Under the pieces are notes generated by a model. That model did no database searches. It saw only the letters and a list, made by a program, of their open reading frames with translations, and was not told where the DNA came from. Shown here in pieces: positions 6,001-64,000 of a stretch of 64,000 nt of DNA. Origin of the DNA: Kryptolebias marmoratus (taxonomy: Eukaryota; Chordata; Actinopteri; Cyprinodontiformes; Rivulidae); NCBI RefSeq assembly GCF_001649575.2, contig NC_051436.1, positions 2,993,682 through 3,057,681 on the forward strand. Direction: 5' to 3'. The position numbers and the translations under genes were made by a program. Position 1 is the stretch's first letter; the number at the start of each line of letters is the position of its first letter.

Positions 6001-6416
6001 TTAGCATAAAATCTTAGTTTCAAACTCTGGCATGAAAGGAGACGGGCAACGTTTGTTGAAAGAAATGCTAGGCCTTTAATTTATGTTAGTAAATTAAAAG
6101 TAAATTTGTGAACCGCTGAACATAATCAGGGTAACACGAGATAAAATTGTTTAAATCTAAAGCTTGAAAACGGTCTCAAATACTAATTTTTGCGTTGTAA
6201 TGATCCAAACTATTAAAGTTTTACCACCAAAAGAATAATTCAGTGACTTCTACGATTAATAGATCAAATCTTTATTGATTTATTTATTTTTAATGTACGT
6301 CTAATCCCTGCTCTGAAACTGGAATATGGAGTTATGGATCTGATTTATATCCCTTCCTGCTTACAGTTATTCCAGTTTATCATTAATCCTGTCTGGCTTG
6401 CCAATACCAATACCTG

Positions 6417-6447
<31 letters not shown>

Positions 6448-9400: not shown

Positions 9401-12400
9401 GGAAGGAAGATGCTGAAAAGCTGAGGCACGTAAGGAGCCTCGACGTGAAGGGAGTGGCTTTAACCGTCCTCCCAGAAAAGGTATCTCGCTGTGGAAAAGA
9501 CACGTCAGCATTCGTCCTCTGCTGTGTGACTTGTCAATAATAATTGTCTCGATGAATACATCCACAGGGCAGTGAATCTGAGAGGGCCCTTCCTGCTGCG
9601 AAGGATCAGAAACAGCCGAGTCAGCAGTAAGTTATTCACACAAGCTGCACTTTATTCATTTACTGTACAGTTTATTATATGAATAATGTTAGTATCTATT
9701 AGGCAGACCCTCCAGGATTTCACGATGTTCCGACCGCAACTATTAATGCAAAATCAAACAAACCCCACAACTTTCCCGCAACTTTATACAACTTTAACCC
9801 AATATTTATTGTTCCTAAGTGATTCGCCACAGTTTCTGCGGTCTAGTCTCTTCTTTGTGGGTTTGTGTAGCGTGGAATACAAAATAACCCCAAATAACTC
9901 AGGAAGAAGACACGTGACGTCACTTCCTGTTAACATCAGAATGCCGGGAGCGTGCAGGAGCAGCGACCGAAGCCAAAATGTGCGCTAATNNNNNNNNNNN
10001 NNNNNNNNNNNNNNNNNNNNNNNNNNNNNNNNNNNNNNNNNNNNNNNNNNNNNNNNNNNNNNNNNNNNNNNNNNNNNNNNNNNNNNNNNNNNNNNNNNNN
10101 NNNNNNNNNNNNNNNNAAACATGTGAGGAGAGCTGCAGACCAGGGACAATCCAGAAATGCTCATGAATGTCAGTTTAGAAGCTATCAAAGTTCTCAAATA
10201 AAGCACCTTTTGAGAATGTCAATGTTTGTTGGGAATTATCTTACAAAACTAGGAAGGATTTTTGGTGTATATATTAAAAATTATGGTTTTTTATTGATTT
10301 TAGTAAAAAAAATTGCAACTTTTAGGAAAATGCCCCGTGAAATCCTGGAGTGACTGCTTAATATCTCAAGTGTCATGTAGACATTGTGTTTGTTTAAAGG
10401 CGTATCTGTGAAAACTGGCGGCGTATAAACATCTTGAAAGGACGTTTTTTTTCATCGTGGAATATTTTAGCCAAGACACATAAGACTAGGAAATGGGTCA
10501 CCTGGGCTACAACGGCAGCCTGAATAAAATATAATCTTAAAGGAAGAGAGTATTTTCTTTACATAATATATGAGAGGGTTATTGCCATGCTGATAACCTG
10601 TTAAAGAAACGTAACATCAAAACAAACCACAAGTTTCATTAAAACATATAAGTTTTTATTGAAACTTGGCACATTATGGTAAATATTATTGTACTTGTGT
10701 GTTAATTGTTGTTCCTATTATTTATATAATTTTTTTTATCATTGCATAGAAAAAAGGTTAAAAGTAAGAAATGCTGATTAAAACAAATTTTTTTGACCTC
10801 TTTCCATAATTTCCCCCAATTTGTTTCTTTCACAGAAAATCTGCAGCGACGGATAAATCCGGTTCTGCTGGAAACTTGGTTCTGCTTCCAATCAAAACGC
10901 TCTTATCTTTACCAGGAAAGCACAAAAAGGCCTCGGCTGGCAAGCTTCGGAAAAAAGCCAAAGTCGCGGGTTCCAAAGAAAAGGGCGTCTCTTTGTCTGT
11001 GAAAAAAGCTGAAGGAGAAAAAGCTTCAGGATCCAAGAAGCTCAGAAGTGCAAAAAGCAGTCCTGGTTCTGGTTGCTCGAAACAGAAACCAGCAACGAAA
11101 GTCACCAAAAAGAGAAGTGAAGATTCTGTGGTTCGGCTGAAAAAAACAACTAAAGTTAAAAAGGCATCAGGTGTGGTTGCTGCTAGCCCAGGTAAGGGCA
11201 GGAGAATTGTCATCAGGGCAAAGAGCCGTGCGTTAAAAACCCTCAAGGGGTTCAGAGCAAAAGATTTTACAGAAAAGACCATGAAGTCGTCGATAAGTCT
11301 GACAGAAGGGACTTTCAAAGCCAGAAACTCTGATTCAAAAGTTCAAGAATCTGCAGTCGAGCCTGGAGGTTCGGCTGAAGTCTGTGAGACGAGAATCATC
11401 ACGGCATCGGAAAGACAGCTGCAAGTCGAGCTGAAAGTTGATCCTGAGACGAGGAAAGAAAAGGAAGCTGAAACGTTGGAGCTTGAGGGTTCTGCCGAGA
11501 GCAAGGAAGGAACCCCGGCGTCTGCAGATGGTCGGACACCAGCCGGCGAAGATGTGACCGAACCAAAGAAATCTTTAACTCAGCATCCTCAGGCGACTCC
11601 AGAAACTTCAGTCACAGATGCACCGCGGGTCCAACCGAGCACGGCGCAGAATCGAAACTCCGGTGCACCGAAACCGAAGGCCGGCACAAAAACTGAACAG
11701 GATCCGACTGCAGGAAGTCCTGCAGGAAGTTCTGCAGGAATTCCTGCTGGAGCTGCTGTGGAGGGTGCGGAGACGAAACCAAATCACAAAGGTAGGCTGG
11801 AAATGATTAATTCACTGAAAAATGCCCAGAAAAGCATCTTCTTTTTTTTTCTGGCACCAGGATAGTGTTTGTTAAATCTAACCAAAACCAGATAAGTGGT
11901 CCTCTCTGATGCAAATGTTTTCAGAATCTGTTAAAATTGTCTGTCTGTTTTAAGACTCTGTTGCCACGAAGACCCAGAAGAATCGAGCTTTAGAGCCTCT
12001 CGACAGCGTTGGAGCAGCTGGATCTTCTCAAACCAAACCAGACATGAAACCTGAAACCAGGAGTGAAACGCCGCCTGCCGCCGCCACCGCCGCCGGCACC
12101 GCCCTGACTGTTGGGGAGAGGATATATTGGTATTGTGGTCCACAAAAAATCAGTAAGAAATTTGTTTGTACCTCAGACGTGGTTTCTGTGTTAACGATCA
12201 TATTTGACTGTCTCTCATTTCTTCTCCTTTGACTCTCTTACAGATTGTGTGATTGCAGAAAGTATCTTATCATCTGGAGTAAGTTTTAATTTTTACTCCT
12301 TTATTGATGCCATCTTTTTAGAGCTTATCATGGTTTGTTTCAGGGGTGGCCAATCCTGGTCCTGGAGGGCCACCATCCTGCAGGTTTTACTTGTTCCTCT

Positions 12401-14453
12401 GCTCCAACACACCTGATCTGAATCAATGGGTGATTAACAGGCTTCTGCAGAACATGAAGAGGTGATTTAACCTCTGAATCAGGTGTGTTGGAGGAGAGGA
12501 ACAAGGAAAACATGCAGGATGGAGGCCCTGAGGACCAGGATTGCCCACCTAGATCTAGAAGAGGATCTGGATCAGAACCAGAATTTAACCCCATCATTTC
12601 CTGAAAATCTGTTTGTAACCTTTTGAGTAACTTGTGCACAGACAGACAGACTCTGCTGAAATAATAACAATTAATTATCCGATCTTTTCATTTGTTGTTT
12701 TAATATTTAAATTGTTTGTTCCAGCCGTTTACGGTTGACTCAACGCTGCTGCTGATAACGAACCTCCCAGACTTCGAGAGTAAAAGCTACACGGAGGCGG
12801 AGGTCGTCAATCTGCTCAGCAAGTTTGGATTTAAGTACGAGCACGACAGCATCTACGTCATTCCTCAGCTGTCCACGGTGAGAGCCCGGTTTTATTTCTG
12901 CCTTTCCACATTTAGGTCTGGATGTGTTTCAAGTTTTAATCGTTAGATTGCATCGAAATTGGACTTGCTTGTTTTGTTTCTTTCTTTCTTTCTTTCTTTA
13001 GTGATATGAAACTCAGACCCTCCAGGATTTTGCGATGTTGCGATCGCAACTATTAACGCAAAATCAAGCAAACCCCGCAAAATCGCAACTTTTTGTAACT
13101 TTGCCCAAAACACCACAACTTTCCCGCAACTTTAACCCAATATTTATTGTTTCTAAAGTGATTCGCCATCGTTTCTGCGGTCTAGTGTCTTCTTTGTGGG
13201 TTTGTGTAGCGTGGAATACAAAATAACCCCAAATAACTCAGGAAGAAGACACGTGACGTCACTTCCTGCAGACCAGGGACAATCCAGAAATGCTCATGAA
13301 TGTCAGTTTAGAAGCTATCAAAGTTCTCAAATAAAGCACCTTTTGAGAATGTCAATGTTTGTTGGGAATTATCTTACAGAACTAGGAAGGATTTTGGTTT
13401 ATATATTAAAAGTTATGGTTGTTTATTGATTTTAGTAAAAAAAAATTGCAACTTTTAGGAAAATGCCCCGTGAAATCCTGGAGGGATTGGAAAGTAAAGA
13501 TGCTGCTAAATGTGTGTTTTCTGATTATTATTTTTTTCCTTCCAGGCGTTTGCCCTCATGCCAAACGAGCGTTCGATGTTGGACCTCATCAGAGCGTCGG
13601 TTCACGAATGCCTCGTCCTCAGAAAGAGAAATCTCTTCTTACACATCGTCAAGGAGAACTTGTTAATGACTCCGGTAAGCAAGCAGACAATAATGCTCAT
13701 GTGTAGCCTACATGGATACACTCCAACAACTATACTGTCATTTTCAAATAAAATTGAGGGTTTTTGCACAAAAATATATAAGAAGAGATGACCTATTTCT
13801 GTAGGAATTTGAATTTATTTAACTTGTTTTGGTTTTGAAACCTTGTAATTTATTTTATGTCTATCAAAAATGTGCCTTTTGACTTTTGCCCAACTTCTTG
13901 AACATTTAATGAACTAATTAAACTAAATGATTATAAAAACCTGACACAGATTCTGAACTCTCGTGTTTCTCTTTCAGCTCGGCTTTTACAAATCCTTGAT
14001 GAAACTAACGCCTCTTGTAAGTAACTCAAACATACTGATCACTCCATAAAAACCCAACTCTTTAAAAGACAAATAAAATTTGACTTTAAATTGATTAACA
14101 TCGGACTGATGAGTTGGGCTCTGAGTCGAACAGTCAAATCAGGAAGAGGGTGTACTTACTTTGACTGTACATAAATCTTTTATATTTTGTATAATATTTA
14201 TCATAGACTTCACTGAATGAGAAGAGATGCAGTTAAACTATAGAAACTCTTAACGGGACGGCAGGACTAATGAGTGTCTCTGGTTTGAATCCTCACCTGT
14301 TAACGAGGCAGAGCGTGAACCAAGACGGAACGAGTTTAATCTACATCCGCGACATCTCGCCAAGTGAGGCCGACGACCTCAGAGAAGCTCTGAGGAAAAT
14401 CGGCTTCGTCAGAAACTTCCTGCCTCTTCTCAACAAGGTATGAGCCCATCTAC

Positions 14454-14486
<33 letters not shown>

Positions 14487-17400
14487 GAACCCCACGTGAC
14501 GAGTTGTTCCCGATGGTCTCGCATCTCTCTGCTCGTTTCAGGTTTTCATCGAGTTTGAGTCGGTTTATGACGCTGATCGGCTCGGGGTTTGGTACAGCTT
14601 CCTGAAGAAAGGCTTCTACCACATCGTTGACAGGATAAAACCACCGAGGAGCACCAAGAGAGCGAAACGTAAGGAGGTTCTATTGGATATTTAGTCAAAT
14701 TAAAGTTAATGGAAGTGATTCTGTCAGCGGTGGGTTAAATACGGGGCTGTGGAGTTCAGACCGGGCTAACCAGTTCCTTCCAGGATTTCGCGGGGCGTTT
14801 TCCTAAAAGTTGCGTTTTATTTTTGTTTTTTTTTACTAAAATCAATAAAAAACCATAATTTTTAATATATACACCAAAAATCCTTCCTAGTTTTGTAAGA
14901 TAATTCCCAACAAACATTGACATTCTCAAAAGGTGCTTTATTTGAGAACTTTGATAGCTTCTAAACTGACATTCATGAGCATTTCTGGATTGTCCCTGGT
15001 CTGCAGCTCTCCTCACATGTTTNNNNNNNNNNNNNNNNNNNNNNNNNNNNNNNNNNNNNNNNNNNNNNNNNNNNNNNNNNNNNNNNNNNNNNNNNNNNNN
15101 NNNNNNNNNNNNNNNNNNNNNNNNNNNNNNNNNNNNNNNNNNNNNNNNNNNNNNNNNNNNNNNNNNNNNNNNNNNNNNNNNNNNNNNNNNNNNNNNNNNN
15201 NNNNNNNNNNNNNNNNNNNNNNNNNNNNNNNNNNNNNNNNNNNNNNNNNNNNNNNNNNNNNNNNNNNNNNNNNNNNNNNNNNNNNNNNNNNNNNNNNNNN
15301 NNNNNNNNNNNNNNNNNNNNNNNNNNNNNNNNNNNNNNTGTTAACAGGAAGTGACGTCACGTGTCTTCTTCCTGAGTTATTTGGGGTTATTTTGTATTCC
15401 ACGCTACACAAACCCACAAAGAAGACACTAGACCGCAGAAACGGTGGCGAATCGCTTTAGAAACAATAAATATTGGGTTAAAGTTGCAAAAAGTTGCGAT
15501 TTTGCGGGGTTTGCTTGATTTTGCATTAATAGTTGCGATCGCAACATCATAAAATCCTGGAGGGTCTGATTGTTTCATTCTTAACCATAAAGATCTGTTG
15601 TTCCTTAAGCCGTAGCATGCGCCAACATCATTTAGTTATTTTGTTTTTAACTAACGTTTTCAATCTTGTTTAAAAAAAAAAAAAAAGAAAAGTAATGAAG
15701 GTTTTTCCAGTCCTGTGGATTCTTCTCATATTTGAAACGACACAACATGAATCTTATCATGATGAATCATGACGGATGAAGCTGCGTCGTTCTGCTGGGT
15801 TTAACGTTGCCCAGACGTATTTTAAACCAAAAATCTCTCCTCGGTTTCTCTCTGCGCAGCACCACAGCTGCCGAGGAACGCTCTGCCCGACAGCGAGGCC
15901 GTCATTCCCGGGTCAGACGTACCGAAAGCAGAATACGGCATTCCTCAGGGCACAACCTCGCCGTTTTGGATCACTATGACAACCAATCCCTACGTTTTCC
16001 CAACGGCATCTCCTTGGTTTAACATCCCAGGTAAGAAACAAAACTCGTTTAAAGATAATTCCAGATTTACTTTGCTTTCTGTAAATGACGCCGACTGAAT
16101 GTGTTCATTTCTGTCTCCTAGATTTCCTGACAGTCCAGCGAAAGGACATTTTAGTAAGCATAATTCTTTGTACATTTAAGCTTTTTATACCTTTGAGTGG
16201 TACTGATGTGAAAAAGAGGACCTAAGACAGACTTTTACAGTGTTTCAGTCAGTTGAATTGTTGTGAAAGTGTTTGAAACATTCAGGAAGTTTCCCGGAGG
16301 AAGCGCAGTGATCAGGTTTTCCTTCCTCCCGTAGACGGCTCTCCATCCGGGCTCCGTCTACTCCACGGTCATGCTGACGGGTTTACCGGAAGGAAACTAC
16401 AAACACGAGGACGTGGCCAGGCTGGTGTGGCCTTATTTCCCCCAACAGAACCTCCAGGCTCTGTACTACAACGTTCTGGTTCTCCCACTGCAGAGGCGGG
16501 TAAGGATCCAGACCAACTCTCAAAACCTTTTTAATTTTCAGTGCAGCTTGGTTAATCTCACAGCACGGTTTTAAGAAAGACGTCCATTGTTGCTGTTTTA
16601 TGGTAAAATTATTATAAAGCTTATTTATGACTTGCTATTTCTTTGTTCAGCATGAATTAGGGCTGCACAAATTATCAAAAATCTGTTGTCATTGGAGTAT
16701 CTGCACGTTGAATATCGGTATTGGACAGTCTTACAGTAAATTGTGCTTAAACTGGATGTCAGTAATATATTTGGCAATCAAATGGATCCCCGCCAAAATC
16801 AAGCAAACCCCGCGAAATCGCGACTTTTTGCAACTTTGCCCAAAACACCACAACTTTCCCGCAACTTTAACCCAATATTTATTGTTTCTAAAGTGATTCG
16901 CCATCGTTTCTGCGGTCTAGTCTCGTTTTTGTGGGTTTGTGTAGCGTGGAATACAAAATAACCCCAAATAACTCAGGAAGAAGACACGTGACGTCACTTC
17001 CTGTTAACATCAGAATGCCGGGAGCGTGCAGGAGCAGCGACCGAAGCCAAAATGTGCGCTAATGCTTCACATTTGCCCANNNNNNNNNNNNNNNNNNNNN
17101 NNNNNNNNNNNNNNNNNNNNNNNNNNNNNNNNNNNNNNNNNNNNNNNNNNNNNNNNTCAAAGTTCTCAAATAAAGCACCTTTTGAGAATGTCAATGTTTG
17201 TTGGGAATTATCTTACAGAACTAGGAAGTATTTTGGTTTATATATTAAAAGTTATGGTTGTTTATTGATTTTAGTAAAAAAAAAATGCAACTTTTAGGAA
17301 AATGCCCCACAAAATCCTGGAGGGATTGGTTAATATCGTTCAGCCCCAGCATGAATACAAACTGGGTTTTTTTGTCCTTTGCAGTGGTTTTATTTGGTAA

Positions 17401-20400
17401 ATTTAGTGTTTTTTGAGATTGTGCTTGTTGGTTTGGTTTTTTTCTGAATATGCGTGTTCGCTGATCTTACGTTTTCAACACGATGCTGTTTTTGTTTGAG
17501 TTAATTTGGCGGTCGTTCTGTTCAGCTTAGATATAATAAATAATCCTGTTAGCAGAGACTAAAATACCCCAAATCTGTCTTAGTTCTTCAGGTATCGGGT
17601 TTAAAATAAGTGAAGAAAATAAAAAAATCTTCAGTCTACAGCATCTATGTTAAACTGAGTCTGCTCCTTTTTTATTGTTTGAGTGAATTAGAGATGATGT
17701 GTAATAAATAGCCACTGTCTTTAAATGCATCTGAGTGTTTTTTTTTTTTCCTTTCTGATCCTCACCTTCAGGCCTTTGTGTATTTCTACGACCGGGAGGC
17801 GTGCTGCAGTTTCGTTCGAGATCACGTCAAAAAGCCGTTTTCCGTCGGAAGCTCCGCCCTCCAAGTCCACTTCATCCTGCAGGACATGCGCCACGAACCC
17901 AGCGAGGTACGAAAACTGCGGGGACAGCGTCTGACGGTGGCACTCTGTGGGCTGCAGCGCTCCGACAGTCGGGTTTCGGTTCGCTTCAGTGTTTGAAAGC
18001 TTGTCTGTAAAGATTCAAACCAGGCGATGGTGCAGATCTGTGAAAATGTTCAATTAGATCAAGATAAAAAAAACATTTTAATACATCATAACACAAGCTC
18101 TAAACTACACAAACTTCTCTTAGGAAAATATTGTTTATATATAATAATACTGTAATACATTATTTTATGTATTTAAGGTGTGTTCAGGTTTATCCTGCAT
18201 TATTTAAAGAGTAATTTACTCTTAAAAACCTTCATTATGAAAATGATTTCCAGCTTTTTTTTGCTTCTGACATCATATTTTCTGCCATCCTGGTGCTACT
18301 TGGTCAGAAAACAAAAATATTTGTAACGTTTTAAATGTATATTTGGCCTAAAAATGTCTCCCAGTTAATTAATTTGATTGATTGTTTGGTAAATAAAAGT
18401 CAAACTAAGACTTTTCTTTGATTTGATTTCTGTTTTACTTTACTTTAATTAAAATACAGCATCTAATGGATTTTATTATTCATTTTGGTTTAAAACCTTT
18501 TTAAAAAATGTACAGATGTTTAAACATTTACATTAAATACAGCTTGTTTTGGGTAAAAATGTGCTTTAATGAAAGTTGTTTTTTTCTTTTTAATTTCTAA
18601 ATTTTCACATTTTTCAAAAGTTTGCAACAACGTCTCCACCAGATATTGTTTTTTTGTATATGTGAGGATAAAATGTTGTTTTGTTTGCAGGAGGTCATGT
18701 ACAGAACCTTCATGAAGTGGAGCAACGCTGTGAGTCGTTAATAAAAACAAAATAAAAATAATCTGCAGCCGATCTGTAAAATGAGCCTCTTTAACACGAA
18801 CCGTTGGTGTTTTTTTATTTTCAGCACGTCCCGGAGCTGCAGTTCCTGGAGAAGCGGCTGCTTTGTGTGGAGCTCTCTGAAACCAGCATGGACCTCGTCA
18901 AGAGGGTCATGGAAGAAGTAGCGTCTTTGGGTTGTTTTGTCAACTTCCTGCCGCTCGCCAACAGGGTACGACGAGGCAACGCCAGCCCGCCATCGTCCTC
19001 CACGAGAAGTCAGAAAGTCGGCTCTCAGTCACGTCGTTGCGTCATTTTGTTCTCGTAGCAGCTTCATCTGCTGCTTCTGTGCCGTGTGATTGGTCAGAAG
19101 TTGTTGATGTGGAAAAGCCGGTGAGCTTTAATGGAGCCATTTTGCTTCTAATGCTGACCGAGGCGCTGCACCGGTCTGTCGTGGTGAAGAGAGAGCTGAG
19201 TCAAAAGGCGAAGCTCTCGATTTACCGGTCGATCTACGTTCCTACCCTCATCTATGGTCACNNNNNNNNNNNNNNNNNNNNNNNNNNNNNNNNNNNNNNN
19301 NNNNNNNNNNNNNNNNNNNNNNNNNNNNNNNNNNNNNNNNNNNNNNNNNNNNNNNNNNNNNNNNNNNNNNNNNNNNNNNNNNNNNNNNNNNNNNNNNNNN
19401 NNNNNNNNNNNNNNNNNNNNNNNNNNNNNNNNNNNNNNNNNNNNNNNNNNNNNNNNNNNNNNNNNNNNNNNNNNNNNNNNNNNNNNNNNNNNNNNNNNNN
19501 NNNNNNNNNNNNNNNNNAGAGGAAGACCCAGGACACGCTGGAGGGACTGGGAACGCCTCGGGATTCCCCCGGAGGAGCTGGCCCAAGTGGCTGGGGAGAG
19601 GGAAGTCTGGGTCTCCCTGCTTAGGCTGCTGCCCCCGAGACCCGACCCCGGATAAGAGGAAGAAGATGGATGGATGGATGGATGGATGGATGAATCTCGT
19701 GGACGATGGAAGGCGTCTCACAAACACGTGACCGAGAACCGACTTTTTGACTTCTCGTGGAGGAAGACGGAGGCTTTTCGTGCTCAGACTCGTCAGTCTG
19801 TTTTAAACTACAGGAAGAAACGCTTCGTTTTATTTTATTTTATTTATATTTGCAGCTTTTGTTGAGTCATCTGTCGCTTCCTGAGTGAAGTACAGTCAGC
19901 ATTGATTAAGAAAAGACCACTAAATCTCTAATCGGTTATATGTGCTTAGAGTCACTAAAAAAGGTTTGTCTATCCAGTTATCTGTATCGATCTCATTGAT
20001 CCTTTATTTGTTTACACATTTGGTTTTTTCTCACCTCTGTAGTCCTTTAAATAAGATTTTAACTTTGACAGATTCTCACACGTTCTCTCGCTTGTTAAAT
20101 GTAAAAAATGTTTTTACCCTCAGATTTGCATCGAGATGGTCGGATCCAGCTGTGTTAGTAACGTGCTGGAGGAGGTTTCTCTGAGGCGGGATTTATCTGC
20201 ACACAAAACCTGGTATGTTTTATTATTTTTGTTTAATTCACTGACAGGACATCAAAGTAAATCAGGGCCGTCAAACTCTGTCACAGCTGATTATGGCAAA
20301 ATACTTTGTTTTTCTACAAATTATCCCATTTCTGAGATTGTTTGGAGCAGAAATCCAACGTTACATTTCCTCCTGCAGGCAAATGTTCGTTGATGATGCA

Positions 20401-22399
20401 GGATTAGATGTTTTCTTTATTAAATTACATTTGAATCATTGTGCAGACAGTGACAGAGTTTATGAGTTTGTTTTGAGAAGCTAAAATCAGAATAAAATCA
20501 AACAAGAAACTAGTTCAGCAGCAGCTTTTCCCTCATTTATAGTTTCACTAACTCCTTTTATTTTTTCCTCTGCAGGAGCAAAGTTCGACACGTCGAGTCG
20601 TGAGTATCGTTCTTTTATTTATTTATTCATCAAGTAAACAAAGTCAAAAAATAAAATCAGTGGTTTTCTGAAGGTTTAATGCCTCTAAAGTCAAAGATGG
20701 AATAAATGTTATAAATTAGACAACCTTACATCTCTTAGAAGTGGTAACTTCCAGGTGATGAATGACTTATTTTTGCATACGAATGGAAATTAATTAATCT
20801 CTTAAAAATGATTCAGATTAATAAAGCAGGCAGAGAAATAAAAGCTTCTCTCTTTATATAAACATAAATGTTCCGTTTCTTAATGAATCTCTTTAAAATT
20901 AAAGGTTCTTTGTTCTTAAATTTCAGTTTGAAGCTCCTAAAACAGCGTTTGAAAGACGCCGGTGAGATCACAATCAACCTGGATGGAGACGTGTCTCAGC
21001 TCTCTGAACTGTCTAACGAGAAGTCCGCCGTCCCCGAGGCGGCGGCGGCGGCGCCTGAGGAACGAGCCGTAGAACCTTCAGGAGTTTCTGAACCTCAACA
21101 CGAGCCCGAAGGAGCCGCAGGACGGTCCAGTGTTTCTAAAGAACCTCCCGACGTTCCCAAAACTGAGATCGAGCCGAAGGCAAAACCTGCAGGACCTCCA
21201 GATGTTTGTAAATCTGAGATGAGACCTGAAAAAAGAACCTCAGAACCTTTCATTGCTTCTAAAGCCGACCTCAAGCCTGAGAGACGAGCTTCAGATCCTC
21301 GGATTGTCTCCAAATCAGGGGCGACGCCTGAGAACCAACCTGTAGAACCTCCGAACGGTTCTGAATCTGAGAGAGGAGACCTAGAATCACCAGATGTTTC
21401 TGGATCTGACATCAGGTCCACGACAAAACCTCCAGATGTTTCCAGATCTGAGATCAAGTCCACAGCAAAACCTCCAGATGTTTCTAAATCTGCAGTCAAG
21501 TCCACGACAAAACCTCCAGATGTTTCTACGACTCAGATCAAGTCCACAACGAAGCCTCCAGATGTTTCGACTCAGATCAATCCAACAAAACCTCCAGATG
21601 TTTCTGTGTCTCAGATCAAGTCCACAACAAAGCCTCCAGATGTTTCTGGACCTCAAGCAAAGCTCGAGGACATATCTCCAGAACCTTCCCCGGCTGTCCT
21701 GGCTTCCAAAGCCGAGACGTCCACAGTGTCCTCATGTCCCCCCTGCAGGGAGACGTCAGCTGCAGGTATTCCTGTCGGCAGAACCAGATCCGTCGCAGCT
21801 TTATAAACTAAAAGCTGTTTTATTATTTTTGGGTGTCGTTCCTGAACCAGAACCAGAACCAGAACCAGAACCTGAACCCGACCGAATCCAGGCTGGAAAC
21901 GGTCATTTTACAGGAACTGCATTAAACTCAACAGCCTTTATTTGTTCCTACTTATTCAGGTTCTTTTATTTATTCTTTCAGCTTCAAGTGCCGTCAGCAA
22001 ACCTTCACCTGCCTCCACTGAATTATCTGGACCTGCCGAAACCGCTCCGCCAGCCGCGGGTCAAACCGAGGATTCCTCCCAGACCGTCGGAGAGAGGATG
22101 GAAAGCCTCCTGCTGCCACAAAACATATGTAAGGAATCCAAGGCATTCGTACGGAAACTGTAGATTTAAGCCTTTTTATTTCACTCCGTTGTTTTTACTT
22201 TTCTTCGCAGGCTGTTTGGAAAACAGAATCATCATGTCCAAAAAACAAGTAAGATTACTCAAAGCACTCGTGAGAAGTATAAAGCAGATACCCTTAACTT
22301 TTACTCAACTTTAAAAAGAATCTGAAGACTTTTAGTCTTATGATAGTCGGACTGATGATGCATTTTCCTGCAGAGTCGAACAGTTTTATTCACTTGCTG

Positions 22400-22437
<38 letters not shown>

Positions 22438-31400: not shown

Positions 31401-34400
31401 TTGCTCGACTCCAGTGAGATCACCGTAAACCTTGATCCGGACTCTGGAGACGTCAGTTTTAACCCCCCGGCTGTGAAGAGTGACCCGCCGCCTGCTGCAG
31501 GACCAGGACCACGTCCTGCTGCAGGACTAGGTCCAGGACCAGGACCAGAACCACGGCTTGCTGCAGGACCAGGACCGCTGCCTGCTGCAGGACCAGGACC
31601 ACGTCCTGCTGCAGGACTAAGTCCAGGACCAGGACCAGAACCACGGCTTGCTGCAGGACCAGGACCGCTGCCTGCTGCAGGACCAGGACCGCTGCCTGCT
31701 GCAGGACCAGGACCACGGCCTGCTGCAGGACCAGGACCACAGCCTGCTGCAGGACCAGGACCAGGACCAGGACCAGAACCACGGCCTGCTGCAGGACCAG
31801 GACCAGGACCACGGCCTGCTGCAGGACCAGGACCACCACCCGCAGCTACGCAGACACCTCAAACATCCAACGAGGAGACGGGACCGACTGCAGCGAAGGC
31901 TGTAAATGCATCCAAACCTGCCACCTCAGAGGAACCAGCCGGTGCTTCCGGAAAGGTTCTGGGATTCGCAGACGGGGCTGCTGAGGCGAGACATGAAACG
32001 GCAGGAACTGTCAAAGTTGAGTCCAAACCTTTGGAGTTGATGGAAACATCTGTAACAGAGCACACAGGGGTCAAAGGTTCTGCTGAGACCGAAGAGGAAA
32101 CAAGTTCCTTCCCAACTAAAACTAGTCAAACAAGCACGGCTGCAGTTAAAACACCGACTCAGAGACCACAGAGCGGCTTCAGATCCCAGGAAGCCTCAGT
32201 GAAACCTTCATCAGAGGTCCAGAAAACCGTGAAGCCAAACTCAGACGCTTCACAGCAGCAGCAGCAGCAGCAGCAAGCTGCAGGAGACGCAGGTAGTTCA
32301 TCTCTTAAACACAGTTAGGCTCTGAAATTAAACATCCAAACATGGACGTACCTAATTTTGTAAAAGTTGGGTTGCTGTAAAAAACAATGCAGTGATTTTT
32401 ATTTACGATGAAACGTAGTGAACCTATTAAATAATTTAACAAAAATACAATTTTTAGGAATGAAGATAATTTTGTATTTTATGGCAGAAATAGTTTCCCT
32501 CTGTGCAGCATCTCCTCCTCTCCCATCAGTCTGAGGAGAACAGCTGCTGGAGGTTTTAGAGGGAATGTGGTCCCATTCTGTCTGTAGAGGATTCTCGCTG
32601 CTCAGCAGTTCTGGGTTTCTGACAGATTTTTGCCGTCTTGATGCATCAGATGATGTCAGCTGGTGAGATGTCTGGACTGCAGGCCGGACTCTTCTTCTCT
32701 GAAGCTGTGAGGTTTAACATCGTCTTCCCTGAGAAATATGTCACCTGGATGGGAGCAGATGTTCTGAAACCTGTATATACTTTTCCAAATGTATACGTTA
32801 GGCATTAATGCACCCCCATACCATCAGAGAGGCAGGCTGACCTCAGAACAGTTCTCCTCTTTGGTCCAGAGGAGACACATCTGTTCACATCTGGCTTCTT
32901 CTTTGCCTGATAGAGCTTTAAGCAGTCCAGTGAACAGTGTTTACAGACAGTGTTCCTGGGCAGAACCAGAACCAGCCTTGACCTTTGACCTCAGAGGTTT
33001 CTGCAGACTCTTCAGATCTGTTGATATTTTGAGCTGCAGATGATGGAGATTCAAAGTTTTCCCAGTTTTCCTTTGAGGAACTTTTATTCTGAAATTGTTC
33101 CTCTGTTTTCAGACAGTTCCTGTCAGCCTGGTGAACCTCTGCCCATCTTCTGACAGATTCAGCCTCTAAGTGATCTTTTTATCTCCACTCCTCTGACTGA
33201 CCTGCTGAGAATTAACCGAGTTAATTACTTAAAGCTCCTCCAGTCGTGCATTTTACTTTTACAGCCTTTCGATGTCCCTGTTTCAACTTTTATTTTGAAA
33301 TGTGTTGCTGCCATAACATTCAAAACAAACTTGTTTTATTGTCTTAGTTTGAACTTTTGTTTACTTTGTTCCATTCTAAGAAGATCTGTGGGTTTGTGAA
33401 ATTTGCACGTTCTGTTTTTATTTCAAAACTGTGAATTTGATGAGTCAGAATGAAAATTAACTGTTTTTTTTTTGTTTTTTTTCTGGAAGATCTTGCGGCT
33501 CGGAAGAGTCCAGCATCGAAGGCTGACAACGAAGCAGCAGGATCTGCAGAAACGGAGCCGAAGGAACAATCTGCTGCTGCAGGAAGCGAAGCGATGGCTT
33601 CTTCCACCCCCGTTAACGCCCTGACGATAACGGACAAAATGATTCGTAAGAAATTCACATAAAAGCTCAGAAATGTGATGCTTCTCCGGCTGGACTTCTC
33701 ATCCATCTTTGAATCTTCTCCGCAGATTTTTCTTCCGTGAAGACCATCCTGTCACAAAAAGTAAGTTTAATCACTGAAGAGTTAGTTTTCCCTTTTCCTC
33801 CCCAGAAAAATAGACTTTATCTCGTTTCTAATCTTGTTTTACAAAACAAAAATGAAATAAATTCTGTTTAAATTTGTTCATTTCCCTCTGCAGTTTGTCA
33901 GGCAGTTCTTATATTAATACTTAATAAAACATTAATTATTTTCCTAAAATAAACCGTAAATAAAATTGAATTTAAATGTTTGTTGTGCATATTTATATAT
34001 TTTTTAAAATCTGAACGCACCTAGGCATTCAGTGGAAAGTGTGGAAATAAAATAAATAAGACTTTATTCCCCGTTTTCTTCTTTGAAACATAAAAATTAT
34101 AATTTTAACAAAACTAATTTGTTTTATTCTAAATAGTAGCACGTCGTATGGCAGCTAGGTGGAAACAAATTTTGTAATTTTGTAAATTTAAAACGATCAT
34201 TTATCACCTTTGTTTGCTGCACCTGTCAGGCAAAATGTAGCCAAACCTTAAAGTAAATATTATTTTTATTCTAACACAATTTTCAGATTGAACATAAAGA
34301 CTTTGCATTTAGAACCATAAACTTAGTGGGAGAAAAATGTTAATAAGAAAATAATTTGTTTCTTTTATTGTTTTATAGTTGAAGTATGCAGAAAATAAAA

Positions 34401-37400
34401 GCAAAAATCTTCAGAAACTATGAATTTTCCTAAAATAAAGTTGTACTCTGATGTGGATGAATGGGTAAAAATAGTCTTATTTATGATTTAATTTGAAATA
34501 TTTTGTTTTTTGCTGGTTGTGAGAATCTGGAAGAAGCTTTAAACAAATAAACTGGTTATTAAATGTAAAAAATGTGTTGCAGGAAGTGAAATAAAACAAA
34601 AAAAACAAATTTTCAGGTGTTTGTGATCTGAAATACAACACATAAACTTCAATATTTGGTCTGTTTGTAACAAAAACAAGTGATTTAGATCATTTTTCGT
34701 AGGATGCAAAGAGAGATTCTCCTCTTTCTGCTCCAACTTGTTCTTCCTTCGTAAAGAAAAATTGAGTTTTGTTTTTTTTTAATAATCCATCTGATGCTTA
34801 TATTCCCATTTCCTTCATCATGTTATCAATTTAATGTATAAAAAGCAGCTTTAACCCTTCCTCTCCTGATGGTTTCCAGATTTTCTCCATGGAGATCAGT
34901 CTGGTGGTAACCAACTTGCCGGAGTTCGGCGGCGGCTGCTACACGGAGGCCGACGTCGTCAGTCTGCTCCGAAAGTCCGGATTTGAGTTCGAAGACGACA
35001 AAGTCTTCGTCGTGCCTCAGAGTCAAATGGTCAGAATCGTCCTCACATGTCGACATTAATTTCTTAGGATTTCAGCCGATTTACTACCAACTATATTATA
35101 TTATATATTATATTATAAATGTGTTGGCGAAACGAGATGGAATGAGCTCAGTGATTTGTTGATGTGGTTTGAACTTCAGGGCCACCGTATCTTAGGCTCA
35201 TGTGCAGGGAAAGTAAAAAAAATACAGATTTTTGTTGTAAATGAGACAAGTAGTCGGTAAAAAATGGAAAATAATCTTCTTAAGCTACATTTTGGATTGA
35301 AGTTTTCTGAAGGGAATGTCTTCAGAAATAATCTTTATAAGCCTCATAACTTCCTTTTCTCTAGCACCAGGAAATCCCTTCGTATAACATTGAAGGTTTG
35401 GGGATTCCCCTGTCCATCTGTCTCCGGACCAATAAAAATTGACTTTTTAAACCGACACTCTCGTAACCAAAAGCAGCTCGTTGCCAGGTGATAAACCACC
35501 AAATTTCAACAAACTATGGATCATTTTTAAGCTTTTGGGATGGAGGATTTGGATTTGAGACACAAATTTGTATAAAATTAATTTGGTGAAATAAAATGGT
35601 GTCCGTCTCTCTGTCGGTCTTCTTTTCAGGCGTTTGTCGTCCACCCAGCTGTGAAGACGGTGCAGAAGTTTTTTAAAGCGTCGAAGAGTCGGGACATGAT
35701 CCTTAACGGGTCGAAACTCTGCGTTCGTGTTACCGCCATCGAGAAGTACGGCTTGGTAAGTTTGACCACAGGGGGAAGGAGTTCTGTGGAGGATTCATGC
35801 ATTAAAAACTTATAGTAGTTGATGGTAAATCCTCGTCTTTTTGAATCTATAATGTAGTTTTACTGCAGTGTTACTGGCAGCAGCTCTTCTATTAGTCAGA
35901 CCCTCCAGGATTTCGCGATGTCACGATTGCAACTATTAACGCAAATCAAGCAAACTCTGCAAAATCGCAACTTTTTACAACTTTGCCCAAAACACCGCAA
36001 CTTTAACCCAATATTTATTGTTTCTGAAGCGATTCGCCACCATTTCTGCGGTCTAGTCTCTTCTTTGTGGGTTTGTGTAGCGTGGAATACAAAATAACCC
36101 CAAATAACTCAGGAAGAAGACACGTGACATCACTTCCTGTTAACATCAGAATGCCGGGAGCGTGCAGGAGCAGCGACCGAAGCCNNNNNNNNNNNNNNNN
36201 NNNNNNNNNNNNNNNNNNNNNNNNNNNNNNNNNCAGTTTAGAAGCTATCAAAGTTCTCAAATAAAGCACCTTTTGAGAATGTCAATGTTTGTTGGGAATT
36301 ATTTTACAAAACTAGGAAGGATTTTTGGTTTAGATATTAAAAGTTATGGTTGTTTATTGATTTTAGTAAAAAAAAAAAAATCGCAACTTTTAGGAAAATT
36401 GCCCGTGAAATCCTGGAAGGACTGGTTAATTAACAGATCAATTTAATGTTATAATTGTGTTTGCACATGGCATGTTTTTGATGTTATCTTTACTTTTTTT
36501 ATCTCTTTCAGTTTAGTTTTTACAAATTTCTGAAATCTGTCTCCGAGAATACCATTGTAAGTACTTCTTTTTATTCTGTTTGATTGAAAACTTCCTCATT
36601 AATGGTTCTAAATACACAAGTTTGCTTTGAAAATTTCCTAGTTTTGCCTCGAGACGTTGTCAGATTCTTAATTTTTTTAAAAGGAGAACCTTGGGGAACA
36701 CGTCTAACTTTCTGTTTGTCTTTAAATACACACCTTTTAATGTACTAAAAACTGAGCTTTGTGTTTGTTTACCCCTGACTTATTCAAATGTTAATGTTGT
36801 TAAACAGATAAGAAAATGCGTCCCGTCAACAGTAGTTTACATCCGGAACATCTCGCCGAGCGAAGCTACGGATCTTAAAGATGCTTTGAGTAAAATCGGC
36901 GGCGTCATAAACTACATTCCTCTGCTCAACAAGGTGCGAACACACCTTTAAATACACGATTAGATGAATCTGAGCATGACTTCCTGTTTCAGCCTTCATG
37001 TTGGGTGGCTATTCCAGGTGTTCGTTGAGTTTGAAAACCCCTGTGACGCCGATCGGCTCGGCGTCTGGTACAGCTTCCTGAAACGGCGTCTTTCCCACGG
37101 CATTCACAGGGCGGCTCTGCCAGGAGAGGAGAAGCTCGGAAAAGCACAACGTAAGACTTCAAATTTGAAGTACTAAAAGTGATGTTGCACAAAGAAATGT
37201 GAGGCATACTTCTTCCTGCCTTAAATGTTTTGTTTTAGAAAACTTCATTCTATTTTTTTTTTATTTTAAGGAGAAATTTAATGTTTTTAATGTCTGATGG
37301 CTGTGAATGACATGAAGATACAGACACTGTTTGTTATTTATTAAATGGGGTTAAAATGGTTCGAATAACTACCATACTAAAATAGATGAACTCATATCGA

Positions 37401-40400
37401 GGTGAAAGGAGGTCTGTCGAAGGCACTCCATCGAGGTGAAAGGAGGTCTGTCGAAGGCCCTCCATCGAGGTTAAAGGGGGTCCGTTGGGGGATTCATAGG
37501 GGTGAAAGTCGGTCTGTCTGCATGAAAGGGACTCTGTCAAAGTTGAAGGTGGTCCATCAAGGTGAAAGTCAGTCCATTGATGGTCCGCTGGGGGTTGTTG
37601 GGATGAAAGTTGGTCCGTAGGGGTGAAAGGGGGTTTGTTGGCATGAAAGGGAGCCTGTCAGGGTGAAATGGGGTCTGTCGGGATGAAAGGGGGTCAGTTG
37701 CCATGAAAGGGGGTCCGTCAGTGTGAAATGAGGCCAGTTGGGGGTCTGTTGGGGTGAAAGTCAGTCCGTCGGAGTTGAAGACGGTTCATCAAGCTTGAAG
37801 CTGGCACATTAAGAGTAAACTCGGGGAAAAAATAAAAAAGGGAAAAACGGGATTTAATACAGTTAAACTAAACACATTGTTTACTCCTTTCTGTGCAGCT
37901 CCGAGTCTGCCGGCACAGGCTCTGCCGCACAGGAACCACATGGTAGCCGGGGCCGCCATCCCAACGGCAGAATGTGGCGTTCCAGAGGGCACCGCTGCGC
38001 CCTTTTGGCTCACCATGACAACTAGTCCCTACGTGTTCCCTACTGCTTGTCCTTGGTTCAACATCCCAGGTAATAGAAACGCTTGTAAACTAAAATTACC
38101 ACATTCAAATTTTTATGAAATTATTAAAAAATTAGTGACCAGATCATCTGGAAACGTGTCGATATCAGCCTCTGTTTTTGCTTCTAGCTCATTGGACAAT
38201 GAGAGAAATAAGGCACAAGAAGGTAAGGACTTTTTTGAGATTTAAAACGTTGTTCTAAATTATTTTCACGCAGCTTTATTTTCCGTTGCTCCACTTTGGT
38301 TAAATTTCTGAGGAAGTAAAATGCTGTTTTCTCTTCTGTGTAACAAAAATTTGACTTTTATCTCTGATTCCCGTAGCTCCTTAAACTAAAGCATTTTCCC
38401 ACGGTCATGTTGACGGGTTTACCGGCTGCGACCTACACACACGAGGACGTGGCTAAACTGGTGTGGGAGTATTTCCCTGAGCAGAACCTTCACTCTCTGT
38501 ACCACAACGTGATGGTTTTACCGCTGCAGAGGAGGGTAACGTCTAACTGAGGCTTACTGCACAAACAGCTTTTATTATAAAAGAAAGCCTTGTTTTTGCT
38601 GTATGTCCTAACCTTTTATTTTTTTATCCTCTCCAGGCCTTTGTGTTTTTCAGCAGCTGGGACGCCTGCTTCAGATTTTTTCAGTCTCACATCAGAAGTC
38701 GATTTTGTTTGAAAGGCTACGTTCTCTTTGCCTACTTTGTCTTAAACATGAGCCCAAGATCCAACGAGGTACGAAAACTGGATCTAATCTTCCATCTTAA
38801 ATGCTTAAAGCTAAGCGTACTTAGGGTTAGGTTTAGGGCCAGGGGTCCGAGGTTAGGTTTAGGGCCAGGGGTCCGAGGTTAGGTTTAGGGCCAGGGGTCC
38901 GAGGTTAGGTTTAGGGCCTGGGGTCCGAGGTTAGGTTTAGGGCCAGGGGTCTGAGGTTAGGTTTAGGGCCTGGGGTCCGAGGTTAGGTTTAGGGCCAGGG
39001 GTCTGAAGTTAGGTTTAGGGCCAGGGGTGCAAGGTTTGGTTTAGGGCCAGGGGTCCGAAGTTAGGTTTAGGGCCAGGGGTGCGAGGTTAGGTTTAGGGCC
39101 GGGAGTTCGAGGTTAGGTTTAGAGCCTGGGGTCCGAGGATAGGTTTAGGGCCAGGGGTCCGAGGTTAGGTTTAGAGCCTGGGGTCCGAGGTTAGGTTTAG
39201 GGACAGGAGTAAGAGGTTAGGTTTGGAGTAATGGTTAAGGGTCAGGGTCAGAGAGAAAGGGGGTTAGGGGTTAGGGATTAGGGTTGGAATTAGTGGTAAT
39301 CCTAACCCGTCATTTTCTTCTGGCTTCATACCTCGATATACCATAGAAGCACAAGATAAATATGAAAACTTGAGCTGGTTTCCTGATATGGAGAATCCCT
39401 CTGTAAGCCACAAGCACCTCTTATGCCCAAGTCTCACTAGGATGAGGACTTCCACACATGAATCAGAACCATCAGAGCGACAGCACTGCTCAGCAACTCA
39501 GCCCTGTGACTACACCCTGGCTGGCTCAGAGGCATAACAGCAATGGATAAACTTCATTCAAACATAACTTGTATGACAGTGAGGTTATAAGGTCATAGGT
39601 CAACATCTTTAATGTTTTTGCAGGAGTCCATGTACAGATATCTGATGGAGTTGAGCAACATAGTGAGTCAGTCATCACTTTTTTAAAATTCTGGTGGAAA
39701 ATAAAAACATTTTTGATAAATTAACAATGTTGGTTTGTTTTCCAGCACGTTCCAGACCTGAAGTCTTTGGCGGACCGCCTGCTATGCGTGGAGGTTTCAG
39801 GGACCAACGAGCGCCTCGTCTCCGAGGTCATGACGGAGGTGGCGAGCATCGCGACCTTCGCCAGCTTCCTGCCGCTCGCTAACAGGGTACAAAAATAACA
39901 TCTGTGGGTTTTAAAATGCAACGTTCAGATCAAAAAATGTCCGAAAGGTCAACTTATTTCAGTTGGTTTCTTAATGAAGGAGAGTCATATGAAGCTTCGT
40001 GTTGAATATAATTCGAACAAAATCAGCCATTTCTTTTTTGTCAAAGGTCCCAACAGTCCTGATCGTATCTACAGGGATTTTCTTTTACTTGAAAAACTTC
40101 CAGACAGGCATAAAAAACTTGTTCTCAGTGTGTCTCAGTCACATCTTGGATGTTTTTATCTTAAATCTGGAAAAACGCAAAGTTCTAAAAGTTTCTTTTT
40201 GAGCCAGCTGGACTCTCCCTCCCCTCCCACCTGAGGGTCATTAGGGTTTTTGTTTTGAGTTTGGACCAGACATGGTTACGGAGGAGCTGTAAATTAATTT
40301 TTCATCTATACTCTAACTTGTGATGAAAATTTTATGAGACTAGTAGTTTTTCTTTGTTGTTTTTTTGGGTCGATATAACATTTATTACCATCACTTTCAC

Positions 40401-43400
40401 TTTAACGTCTTCTGTCTTTTGGGTTTTTTTCTGGGACAGATTTACATCGAGATGGCCGAATCCAGCGGCGTAACAAAGGTGGTGGAGAACTTGTCGGTGT
40501 GCAATGCATCTAAAAAGTCAGACGTTTGGTACGAGGAGTAAATATTTACTTTATTGCTGTGTTTGCAAGATTACCTGTCTGAATTATGTCTTTTTTAATC
40601 CCACAGGAACCAGGTTGGACGCATTGAACCGTGAGTATTTCGTTTTAGTGTGTTTCTAAGGGGGTCACAATGTAAATATTGTAACAATAACACGATTAGA
40701 AAATGAATGTAGAGCTTTCTGAATGGTTTGACCACTTGGTTGACCTTGTTTTGGCTCATTGTGCTTAAGCCTTGCTCAGATTTAACGCTCTGAAATCTTA
40801 TTTCCTGTAAAGTGTCTTCATCATCTGTTTGGAGAATTAACCAGCTTTCTTTGTTAACCTTTAATTTCAGTTTGAAGAGCCGAAAGCAGCGTCTCCAAGA
40901 CTGTAAAAGGATCGCCGTAAACCTTGAACTGGGCACCATTGACGTCTACACCAAGTCCACGACAGTGAAAGGTTCAGCACATCCTCCTCTTCCTCTTCCT
41001 CCTGCTGATGATGAAGAGGCACCAGTATCCTCAGCGATGGAGGAGGATTGTGAAACTGATGCTGGAACGGCAGAGAAGAAGAAGGAGGAGTCTGTGTTCT
41101 GCGGTCCTGTTCCGTCTGAAGAAGAAGAAAATCTGCCTAATCTGGACATGGAGAGTTTCAGTGCATTAAAAGCAGCAATTCTCCATTTTAAATCCACTCA
41201 ATCCCTAACACAAAGCAGAGAGGTGACTTTTTTTACTTTATTCGCTGTTGAAATGCGTCTGAAAACACCGACTTATTTCATTTAATTACTGGAAATGACA
41301 GAAAACAGAAATACGTTAACATACTGAAATTAAACTCTGATTTTAAAAATTGAAAAGATCAATTTTCTGTCTAAGCTGCGTATTTTAAAGGTTCAGATTG
41401 TCTGCGAGGGGGAAAAAATAATGATTCCTGGATGATTTACCTGTTACACGTGACCCAATCTGACCAAACGAGTCATTATTTTTATATTCTACGTCTTAAA
41501 AGCTTCAAAATGATCTGTAGTTTGTTGAAATTTGGTGATTTATCACCAGTGCCAGTCTGGAAACCTTTTTTTTTATTGGTCTGGAGTAACGTCATCAGGA
41601 GTTCCAGCTTGACGATGGCGCCAAACATTAAACGAAGGGATTTCCCGGGGCTACGACAGCTGGCAATTCAAAGGAATGTATAAAACAAAGGATTTTTTCT
41701 GAAGACAAAACTTTAATTTAAAGGTAGATTAGGAAGACTTTATGCTGTTTCAGTCACCTGGATCATTAGATGGTGTCTTTATCTTTATTTGATTAATATA
41801 ATAATGAATATTTTGATGTTTTTTGCGCTGCAGCCAAAGCTCATTCTGACTCCAACGGGTTTGATCAACCTGATGCCTCCGGCTCTGTCGTAATGAAGTC
41901 ATTTTAATTTGAAATCGAGGTTGTCTGTGCTGTTCTTCCTGTTAGCCTGTTTCGCCTCTTCCATGCAAACAAATGTAGCTTTTTTAAAACCAGACCCACC
42001 TCAAACACTTCTTTACTTCTTTGCACCTGATATAAATGATCAGACGGCAGAGTTTATGTTTTTAATCTCAGGAAATGAAATGTTATAATTAGTTTTTGCT
42101 AAATGCAGGCATGTCAGTCAGCTAATTAACAACTTCAGGGGTGAAGTTTTGTCTTGTTCCACATTTTAAAATGTTTATATCTTGATCATTTATGCTTTCT
42201 AGGTCTCTGGTGAAGGCGGAAGCAGCTCTGGAGCAGCAACAGATGAAGACGCGTCACAAAAAAAGGTTTTTTTTGTTTTAGTAGTTATTGTTTGTTGCTT
42301 CCTTGAAACATTTGTCTTCATTCAGGGAATCAAACTCCTGATGTCTGATGATAATCGTATTGTCATCGATGGTCCCGTTGAAGTTGTTTTGCTGGTCGTT
42401 GTTTAAAACGATTTTTACAGAGAAGTAGGTAAATAATCTATATGTTACATGGGGGCTCGTCCGGGATACCCACTTTGTATTGACTTGGCTTAACAGAGGT
42501 GCAGATTTAAAGACAACAATAATGTTTTTGTATGATTTAGTGTTGATGAATGTGATTTAATGTTGATGAAGAAGAGCTTCAACCAAGTGAAGGAAGGTGG
42601 TGTTTTTACAGAGGAGCATAAAAATATAAGATGTTAGATTGGATCAGACCATAATGATCAATAACTGAACTCTTTTAATGATTCAGAAACTCTTCTTCCT
42701 CCACCCAGGCTGGAGAAGACACCGAAGATGTTCGTTCTTCGAATCCTCACTTTGACCCAGATTTGAACTTTGAGGACTTTGTCACTATTGATGAAATTAG
42801 TGAAGACGGCGGCAGCTCCTCCACATCTAACCAGATCCCCGGAGAGAAACGAGGGAGGCAAAGCTCAGGTGTGTGCTCAGCAGAGTTCTCAGAGTCCTCT
42901 TCATCGTCCTCATCAAAGTCCACAAACAGCAGCTCGTCTCCTAGTTCCGCTTCTGTGTCTGAGCCCAGCAAACCCCAAACTAAACCCTCCTCTTCTGTCA
43001 GGGGCAGTAAACCCTCCTCTTCCTCCTCTTCTTCAGAGTCTGTTGACACTCTGAGGGCTCAGTCTTCATTTAAAACCCGATCATCATCATCATCATCAGG
43101 AGAGAAGGCTAACGCCACAGAGAGCGCAGGGAGAAGGTCGCTGCGCTCTGCTAAAGCTATTGAGTCGAAAGTAGAGACGTTATCAGAGATGGATCCGGAA
43201 CAGAAGCTGGAGTTGATCCACCGAACCTGGAGTCTGGAGACTGAAGACGAAACGCTCAGAGAGGCGAAGAAATGCGAAGAAAACAAAACGGAGGAGGACG
43301 GAGATACGAAAGACCAAATCCTTGATTCATTCAGTGAGAAAAATGAAGAAGAGAACCAAGAAACTCAAACACCTGGACCTGAGAAAGACCAGGTCCCACA

Positions 43401-63879: not shown

Positions 63880-63942
63880 TCAGTCTGAAATGGAGCCCTG
63901 AGGTTCTGCTGACGATCCCGAAGCTCGCTGCTGATAATATTT
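63880..63942 (-). CDS. Last coding exon of an unidentified minus-strand gene (partial)
   Basis: On the minus strand a TTTTCAG acceptor precedes 21 codons, KYYQQRASGSSAEPQGSISD and a stop. An AATAAA follows about 80 bp further on. The gene continues beyond the right edge. I do not recognise the C-terminus. It is convergent with gene 2, about 1.1 kb from that gene's poly(A) signal. The evidence is a small open stretch plus signals, so confidence is moderate. Confidence 0.5.
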   Translation of the reverse strand, partial: KYYQQRASGSSAEPQGSISD

Positions 63943-64000
63943 CTGAAAACGAGACGAAGGGAAAAAGAACAGGATCAGAAGCGGAGCTTGAGGGGTTCCA

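Follow-up and report, generated by a model that had tools for sequence, protein, structure and literature searches.

The stretch of DNA analysed here (the window, 64,000 nucleotides; contig positions 2993682-3057681 of the 680.65 Mb genome of the mangrove rivulus, the killifish Kryptolebias marmoratus) carries a predicted ZNF638-like gene with 63 coding exons (1526..45970, + strand), which form one open frame from ATG to TGA and code for a protein of 4,229 amino acids. Three consecutive modules of this gene each code for a quartet of predicted RNA recognition motif (RRM) folds. The 63-exon model was built from splice scores, exon homology and alignments of homologs, and was completed prior to comparison with the NCBI entry of the locus. 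Isoform X2 of that entry (LOC108248598, an 'uncharacterized protein' of 4,184 amino acids, P0131) is identical to the model at 4184/4184 residues, the sole difference being the absence from X2 of the 45 residues of exon 5633-5767. Of the checks made on the exon structure, all at the level of sequence, this match is the most stringent. The exon absent from X2 is the first of RRM 1, which may thus be switched by splicing.

The protein is ordered as an N-terminal block, a split zinc finger, an arginine/serine (RS)-rich exon, RRM 1, a lysine-rich exon, three modules (M1 to M3) with RRM folds a to d, a charged exon and a C-terminal zinc finger. The corresponding features are:

2930..3721, + strand: first C2H2/matrin-like zinc finger (exons 1526-3076, 3275-3336 and 3683-3721; DWIVHQNTSLHLESC; tblastn with homologs)
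4249..5156, + strand: RS-rich exon with SPRRSPKRR-like repeats (translation)
5633..9480, + strand: RRM 1 (exons 5633-5767 and 9382-9480)
11955..21765, + strand: M1, 16 exons, quartet 1 plus spacer 20927-21765
12725..13674, + strand: M1 RRM a (exons 12725-12877 and 13546-13674; alignment to modelled homolog)
14312..14668, + strand: M1 RRM b (exons 14312-14437 and 14542-14668), preceded by 39-nt exon 13978-14016
15860..16030, + strand: M1 X linker exon, 171 nt (PFWxTMxT...FPTASPWF)
16335..17906, + strand: M1 RRM c (exons 16335-16499 and 17772-17906)
18825..20212, + strand: M1 RRM d (exons 18825-18965 and 20124-20212), preceded by 39-nt exon 18691-18729
21982..32292, + strand: M2, 16 exons, quartet 2 plus spacer 31379-32292
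23187..25213, + strand: M2 RRM a (exons 23187-23339 and 25085-25213)
27059..27382, + strand: M2 RRM b (exons 27059-27184 and 27256-27382)
28066..28236, + strand: M2 X linker exon, 171 nt (module exon table, homolog alignment)
28448..28833, + strand: M2 RRM c (exons 28448-28609 and 28699-28833)
29592..30994, + strand: M2 RRM d (exons 29592-29732 and 30918-30994)
33490..41222, + strand: M3, 16 exons, quartet 3 plus spacer 40871-41222
34880..35755, + strand: M3 RRM a (exons 34880-35029 and 35630-35755)
36808..37150, + strand: M3 RRM b (exons 36808-36933 and 37018-37150)
37899..38069, + strand: M3 X linker exon, 171 nt (module exon table, homolog alignment)
38377..38768, + strand: M3 RRM c (exons 38377-38535 and 38637-38768)
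39746..40528, + strand: M3 RRM d (exons 39746-39886 and 40440-40528)
42709..43897, + strand: charged low-complexity exon (translation)
45736..45970, + strand: C-terminal matrin-like zinc finger GFFCDLCS...H and stop (homolog alignment, translation)

Organization of the three modules

Each module has the exon order lead, ~35 nt, 1a, 1b, 39 nt, 2a, 2b, X (171 nt), ~35 nt, 3a, 3b, 39 nt, 4a, 4b, 24 nt and spacer. All 48 module exons are in frame and follow a common phase pattern, with one exception: the outgoing phase is 0 at the third spacer and 1 at the first two. Most exons pair module by module in blastn and blastp comparisons inside the window. The initial annotation had described three consecutive 15-exon modules with the same order and phases, which holds, the number of exons being 16 once the spacer is counted. 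Its statement that exon lengths are mostly identical applies in part: length is constant across the three modules in 5 of the 15 exon classes (2a 126 nt, X 171 nt, the second 39-nt exon, 4a 141 nt and the 24-nt exon) and shared by two of three in 8, while the lead and 3a differ throughout. Length differences between modules are multiples of 3 in all 15 classes. The proposed mirroring of the first five RRM exons by the second five exists as well, but it extends over seven exons, in the order lead or X, then ~35 nt, a, b, 39 nt, a' and b', whose incoming phases agree between the two halves.

The profile of the RRM pair detects six pairs in the protein. Together with RRM 1 they account for the 13 RRM-like folds anticipated in about 4,250 residues. 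Protein identity between modules is 44-52% for first pairs and 51-59% for second pairs, and 18-22% between first and second pairs. The NG86 nonsynonymous (dN) and synonymous (dS) distances between modules are 0.31-0.53 and 0.54-1.11, respectively. A phase-0 intron cuts 13/13 RRM-like folds; mapping of the 12 repeat folds onto a modelled homolog places it where strand 3 begins. This common intron argues for the origin of all folds from one split RRM.

None of the 45 pairs of corresponding introns is alike between modules (blastn, E<=1e-3), while introns at non-corresponding places do carry copies of a common repeat. The dissimilarity of the corresponding introns indicates that the modules are old and not an assembly artefact. 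A false assembly, or neighbouring genes read as one, could be suspected from the N runs inside introns of this locus, but it is extremely improbable: no N run lies in any modelled exon, the frame is single, the NCBI model is identical and six pairs are found in 17 other proteins. Several separate genes were also rejected, as far as the sequence allows, on the single frame and the one matching NCBI model. Separate transcripts and an assembly artefact were the two findings named at the outset as able to overturn the one-gene view; the frame, the matching model and the dissimilar introns speak against both.

Predicted RRM folds and their conservation

The structural model of the homolog P0031, which has the same quartet, contains four beta-alpha-beta-beta-alpha-beta units, one per quartet fold, with a predicted local distance difference test (pLDDT) score of 80-97 in 48/50 ten-residue blocks of residues 51-550. 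The window modules align to this model without large gaps. The first RRM of P0031, the first of its quartet, superimposes on the RRM1 of human ZNF638 (PDB 6sxw, entitled as the first RRM of this protein) with a root-mean-square deviation (rmsd) of 1.4 over 73 residues and 30% identity, the highest sequence identity among the 50 structural matches listed. These matches cover mainly model residues 68-174, and folds b-d rest on the P0031 model and homology. The unit-by-unit structure prediction suggested initially is provided by this model for the four quartet folds of a homolog, the PDB match to an RRM concerning mainly the first. A sequence search of PDB with M1 folds c-d gave 6sxw as the only chain at E<=1, weakly (E 0.57), and when 6sxw was compared to 118 fish homologs the best matches, down to E 1.6e-6, were the first RRMs of pairs. 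The RRM fold is predicted from a homolog with the same quartet, and its relationship to the ZNF638 RRM is supported by sequence and model comparisons of which the two stronger were made on homologs.

Canonical RNA-binding RRMs have aromatic residues (RNP consensus) in strands 1 and 3. Fold b has a tyrosine in strand 1 and a phenylalanine in strand 3, fold c has phenylalanine and tyrosine or phenylalanine in strand 3 only, and fold a has a phenylalanine in strand 3 only. Folds b and c, which keep aromatics at usual RRM contact places, would be the likelier sites of nucleic acid contact; the divergent folds a and d may have a role in packing against neighbours or in protein binding instead.

RRM 1 is matched weakly by Pfam (RRM_3, 16.3 bits versus a cut-off of 22.9) and by PDB chains 1wex (E 0.011), hnRNP L (E 0.14) and matrin 3 (E 0.23), its top PDB match being the unrelated-looking 4u06 (E 0.0011). 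The ZNF638 family has matrin-type zinc fingers at both ends, around an RS region and RRMs, and the window protein has them in both residues and order. Its N-terminal exons align with fish proteins of which some bear the name zinc finger protein 638-like, and its C-terminal finger aligns with others. The pattern of the first finger occurs inside the first 650 residues of 55/201 proteins, the window protein among them; Pfam zf-C2H2 reports this finger below cut-off only, and the Pfam zinc-finger models in general fall short of their cut-off in this protein.

In comparisons with seven six-pair proteins from three orders, the per-module average identity of the RRM exons is 35-66%, and 97-100% of their residues align. 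For the spacers the values are 9-31% and 33-100%, and the X exon is 33-71% identical. M3 is the least conserved module. The three X exons keep a PFWxTMxTxPxxFPTxSPWFxIP-like core without a Pfam match, possibly a binding motif of its own.

Relatives and history of the duplications

Relatives were collected as 230 distinct fish proteins from three protein searches (118 matches; best 120 of 188; best 120 of 283), the third of which used a profile of 27 sequences so as to extend to tetrapods. No tetrapod protein is among these matches listed. The relatives were taken as percomorphs from their names, and lineage was looked up for five species. A search of plasmids with the window DNA gave no match.

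A full pair was defined by at least 60 bits and at least 60% of the pair model. With the window protein included, 0, 1, 2, 3, 4, 5 and 6 full pairs are found in 7, 21, 146, 19, 14, 5 and 19 of 231 proteins, respectively, counts below two including fragments (several of the 21 one-pair proteins are short or start near or inside a pair). Two pairs are the commonest state among the proteins listed (146/231), and both Lucifuga (P0064) and the ophidiiform Genypterus (P0224) already have them. In the 78 proteins that look full-length by zinc-finger patterns, 0, 1, 2, 3, 4 and 6 pairs occur in 2, 4, 59, 3, 5 and 5 cases. Six is the maximum among the proteins listed, the longest of which has 4,893 amino acids. 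The 19 six-pair proteins are the window gene, its own database entry and 17 others, from 14 genera counting Kryptolebias, so that the search for further fish ZNF638-like genes with more than four RRMs, proposed with the first description, was productive. By sequence, the six-pair trait is not special to K. marmoratus and many related fishes have it.

In a tree of 472 units, one clade with support 1.0 holds 181/186 second pairs and 0/195 first pairs (5 of 381 units are exceptional); these counts refer to proteins whose number of units is even. It is therefore likely that the doubling of the pair predates the sampled percomorphs. A single pair as the starting point would follow from the homology between first (A) and second (B) pairs.

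In a tree built with the 86 quartets of 43 selected proteins, quartets group by position. The clades of second (q2) and third (q3) quartets from Cyprinodontiformes, Oryzias melastigma and Atheriniformes have supports of 100 and 99, respectively, and the first-quartet (q1) clade across the three orders is discussed below. Separate pair trees are weaker (A1 91, A2 70, A3 96, B1 85, B2 91, B3 69), the B tree being weak at its base. An independent tripling in Cyprinodontiformes, Atheriniformes and Beloniformes was rejected (deltaL 241.7, p-AU 5e-51 in the approximately unbiased (AU) test, 39 quartets). According to the lineage look-up, all three orders belong to the superorder Atherinomorphae. The position-wise clades and the rejection of independent tripling indicate that the quartet tripled once, before the Atherinomorphae split. 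The alignment and tree of pair units thus support the history put forward in the initial annotation, in which a pair doubled into a quartet and the quartet with its spacer then tripled: first and second pairs separate and positions group across three orders.

The six-pair proteins of Odontesthes (P0130), Leuresthes (P0132), Melanotaenia (P0135), O. melastigma (P0136) and Poecilia latipinna (P0133) have the same three quartets in the same order and group by position in trees; per module, RRM exons of such relatives are 35-66% and spacers 9-31% identical to those of the window gene. Further, separate amplifications are indicated by the trees in other fishes: the quartets of pipefish (Corythoichthys) form one clade with that of a single-quartet pipefish, the two quartets of Embiotoca are sisters, and the quartets of Melanotaenia LOC121639500 group within Melanotaenia, with support 100 in each case.

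Putative function and neighbouring genes

Human ZNF638 has zinc fingers, an RS region and three RRMs in about 1,980 amino acids; the initial annotation took it to carry one pair after its first RRM. Many RRMs in one vertebrate protein are also known from RBM19, which has six. To our knowledge, no RRM amplification has been found in matrin 3 or RBM20. According to PMC6279932, ZNF638 has two RRMs, and matrin 3 and RBM20, with two RRMs and one RRM versus 13 predicted folds in the window protein, are related RRM and zinc-finger proteins that handle RNA. Human ZNF638, also named NP220, is reported to bind cytidine-rich DNA, to recruit HUSH/SETDB1, and to bring HUSH to unintegrated retroviral DNA, retroelements and recombinant adeno-associated virus (rAAV).

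By analogy, each quartet of the fish protein might be one head for binding nucleic acid (DNA or RNA). The three quartets, carried on flexible spacers, could raise avidity through many weak contacts, and bound DNA, either extrachromosomal or of retroelements, would be passed to HUSH/SETDB1 for trimethylation of histone H3 lysine 9 (H3K9me3). The reading that we favour by a small margin over its denial combines these steps with the history above: a 4,229-amino-acid ZNF638-like protein, an old doubling of the pair, a single tripling in Atherinomorphae and a predicted array of 13 folds that binds nucleic acid for silencing.

Several observations weigh against this reading. None of the three modules attains the Pfam gathering score for any RRM family (the best RRM_1 (PF00076) score is 12.1 bits versus 20.7, in M3), and no Pfam or NCBIfam family was found above cut-off. 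Aromatic residues are missing from strand 1 of fold d and, in M1 and M2, from its strand 3 too. The q1 clade across three orders has a support of 54 with Oryzias and of 100 without it. Plain identity finds the best match at the same position in only 26/36 unit comparisons with six species (2/6 for O. melastigma and 1/6 for the first pair of M3), but trees, which weigh rates, still group these units by position. The order of the module duplications differs between the A-only tree, which favours A1+A2 (98), and the quartet tree, which favours q1+q3 (99), the AU test keeping all three orders. The dN/dS ratio of the modules (NG86, 0.41-0.57, with dS up to 1.1) points to moderate constraint. The fish ZNF638-like genes could also be RNA-splicing factors.

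A related view keeps the gene and its history but gives the protein a role in RNA processing similar to that of matrin 3 or RBM20, in which the array would hold long pre-mRNAs or nuclear RNA instead of silencing DNA. It is possible, with a distinctly lower probability than silencing; the RRM1 of ZNF638 itself is the match of highest identity to the modelled fold among the 50 listed, and recent work on the human protein stresses the recruitment of HUSH. It is quite unlikely that the array is structural drift, in which unequal exchange added quartets as length without new function and only one quartet matters. The variation of copy number between genes and lineages, the lack of pairs found in the neighbouring gene 2 (see below) and the lower conservation of pair a of M3 would fit such drift. 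However, seven relatives from three orders retain the RRM exons of each of the three modules nearly without gaps, which does not hold for the spacers, and positions remain orthologous in trees.

A broader extension of the silencing reading, rather unlikely though a little less so than drift, would see percomorph ZNF638 as an evolving genome-defence family, in which tandem genes and multiplying quartets provide separate recognition heads for foreign or retroelement DNA on one HUSH-type scaffold, comparable in fish to the expanding KRAB zinc-finger arrays in mammals. In human cells, ZNF638 is described as a gatekeeper through which unintegrated retroviral DNA, retroelements and AAV vectors are silenced. 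An RRM array grown by two nested rounds of duplication, with positions distinct across three orders, would offer a natural experiment in multivalent nucleic acid recognition. The gene and its relatives are already in databases, many as uncharacterized proteins, and the nested amplification of a domain in this known family is undescribed in the literature searched: no published account was found among the papers listed for ZNF638, NP220, RBM19 and the LOC name, a coverage with most subscription journals outside it.

The window gene (gene 1) is followed by two related genes. Gene 2, in tandem, extends from 51198 to ~62540 (+ strand). Its N-terminal block, its RRM 1 and its two zinc fingers are present; no match to the pair was found between its RRM 1 and C-terminal finger. 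Gene 3, on the - strand, has its C-terminal exon at 63883-64000, the last 118 bases of the window, and continues to ~3086.6 kb of the contig. It holds one quartet, outside the window. Like the two-pair ZNF638-like proteins of other fishes, it shares the RRM, zinc-finger and quartet layout of gene 1, with one quartet instead of three. A search of the genome with M1 gave 30 matches, all on the contig of the window; gene 1 accounts for 23 of them and gene 3 for the other 7. These killifish paralogs with six, zero and two pairs, together with four-pair fish proteins, could be used to test whether more pairs mean stronger or different silencing. In Fundulus heteroclitus the relatives carry six gene names (P0003, P0009, P0015, P0048, P0067 and P0077) on contigs all of 35,742,472 bases, and the family is likely a larger cluster there.

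The repeat found in introns of gene 1 has copies ~82-97% alike in the same orientation at 9695-10365, 13014-13490, 16794-17337 and 35888-36430, with an N run in the middle of three of the four. A further pair of repeats lies at 14775-15570 and 53418-54121. The intron between the M3 exons 3b and 39 nt contains a minisatellite (38825-39228) with a period of ~26 bp and TTAGGTTTAGGG-like units.

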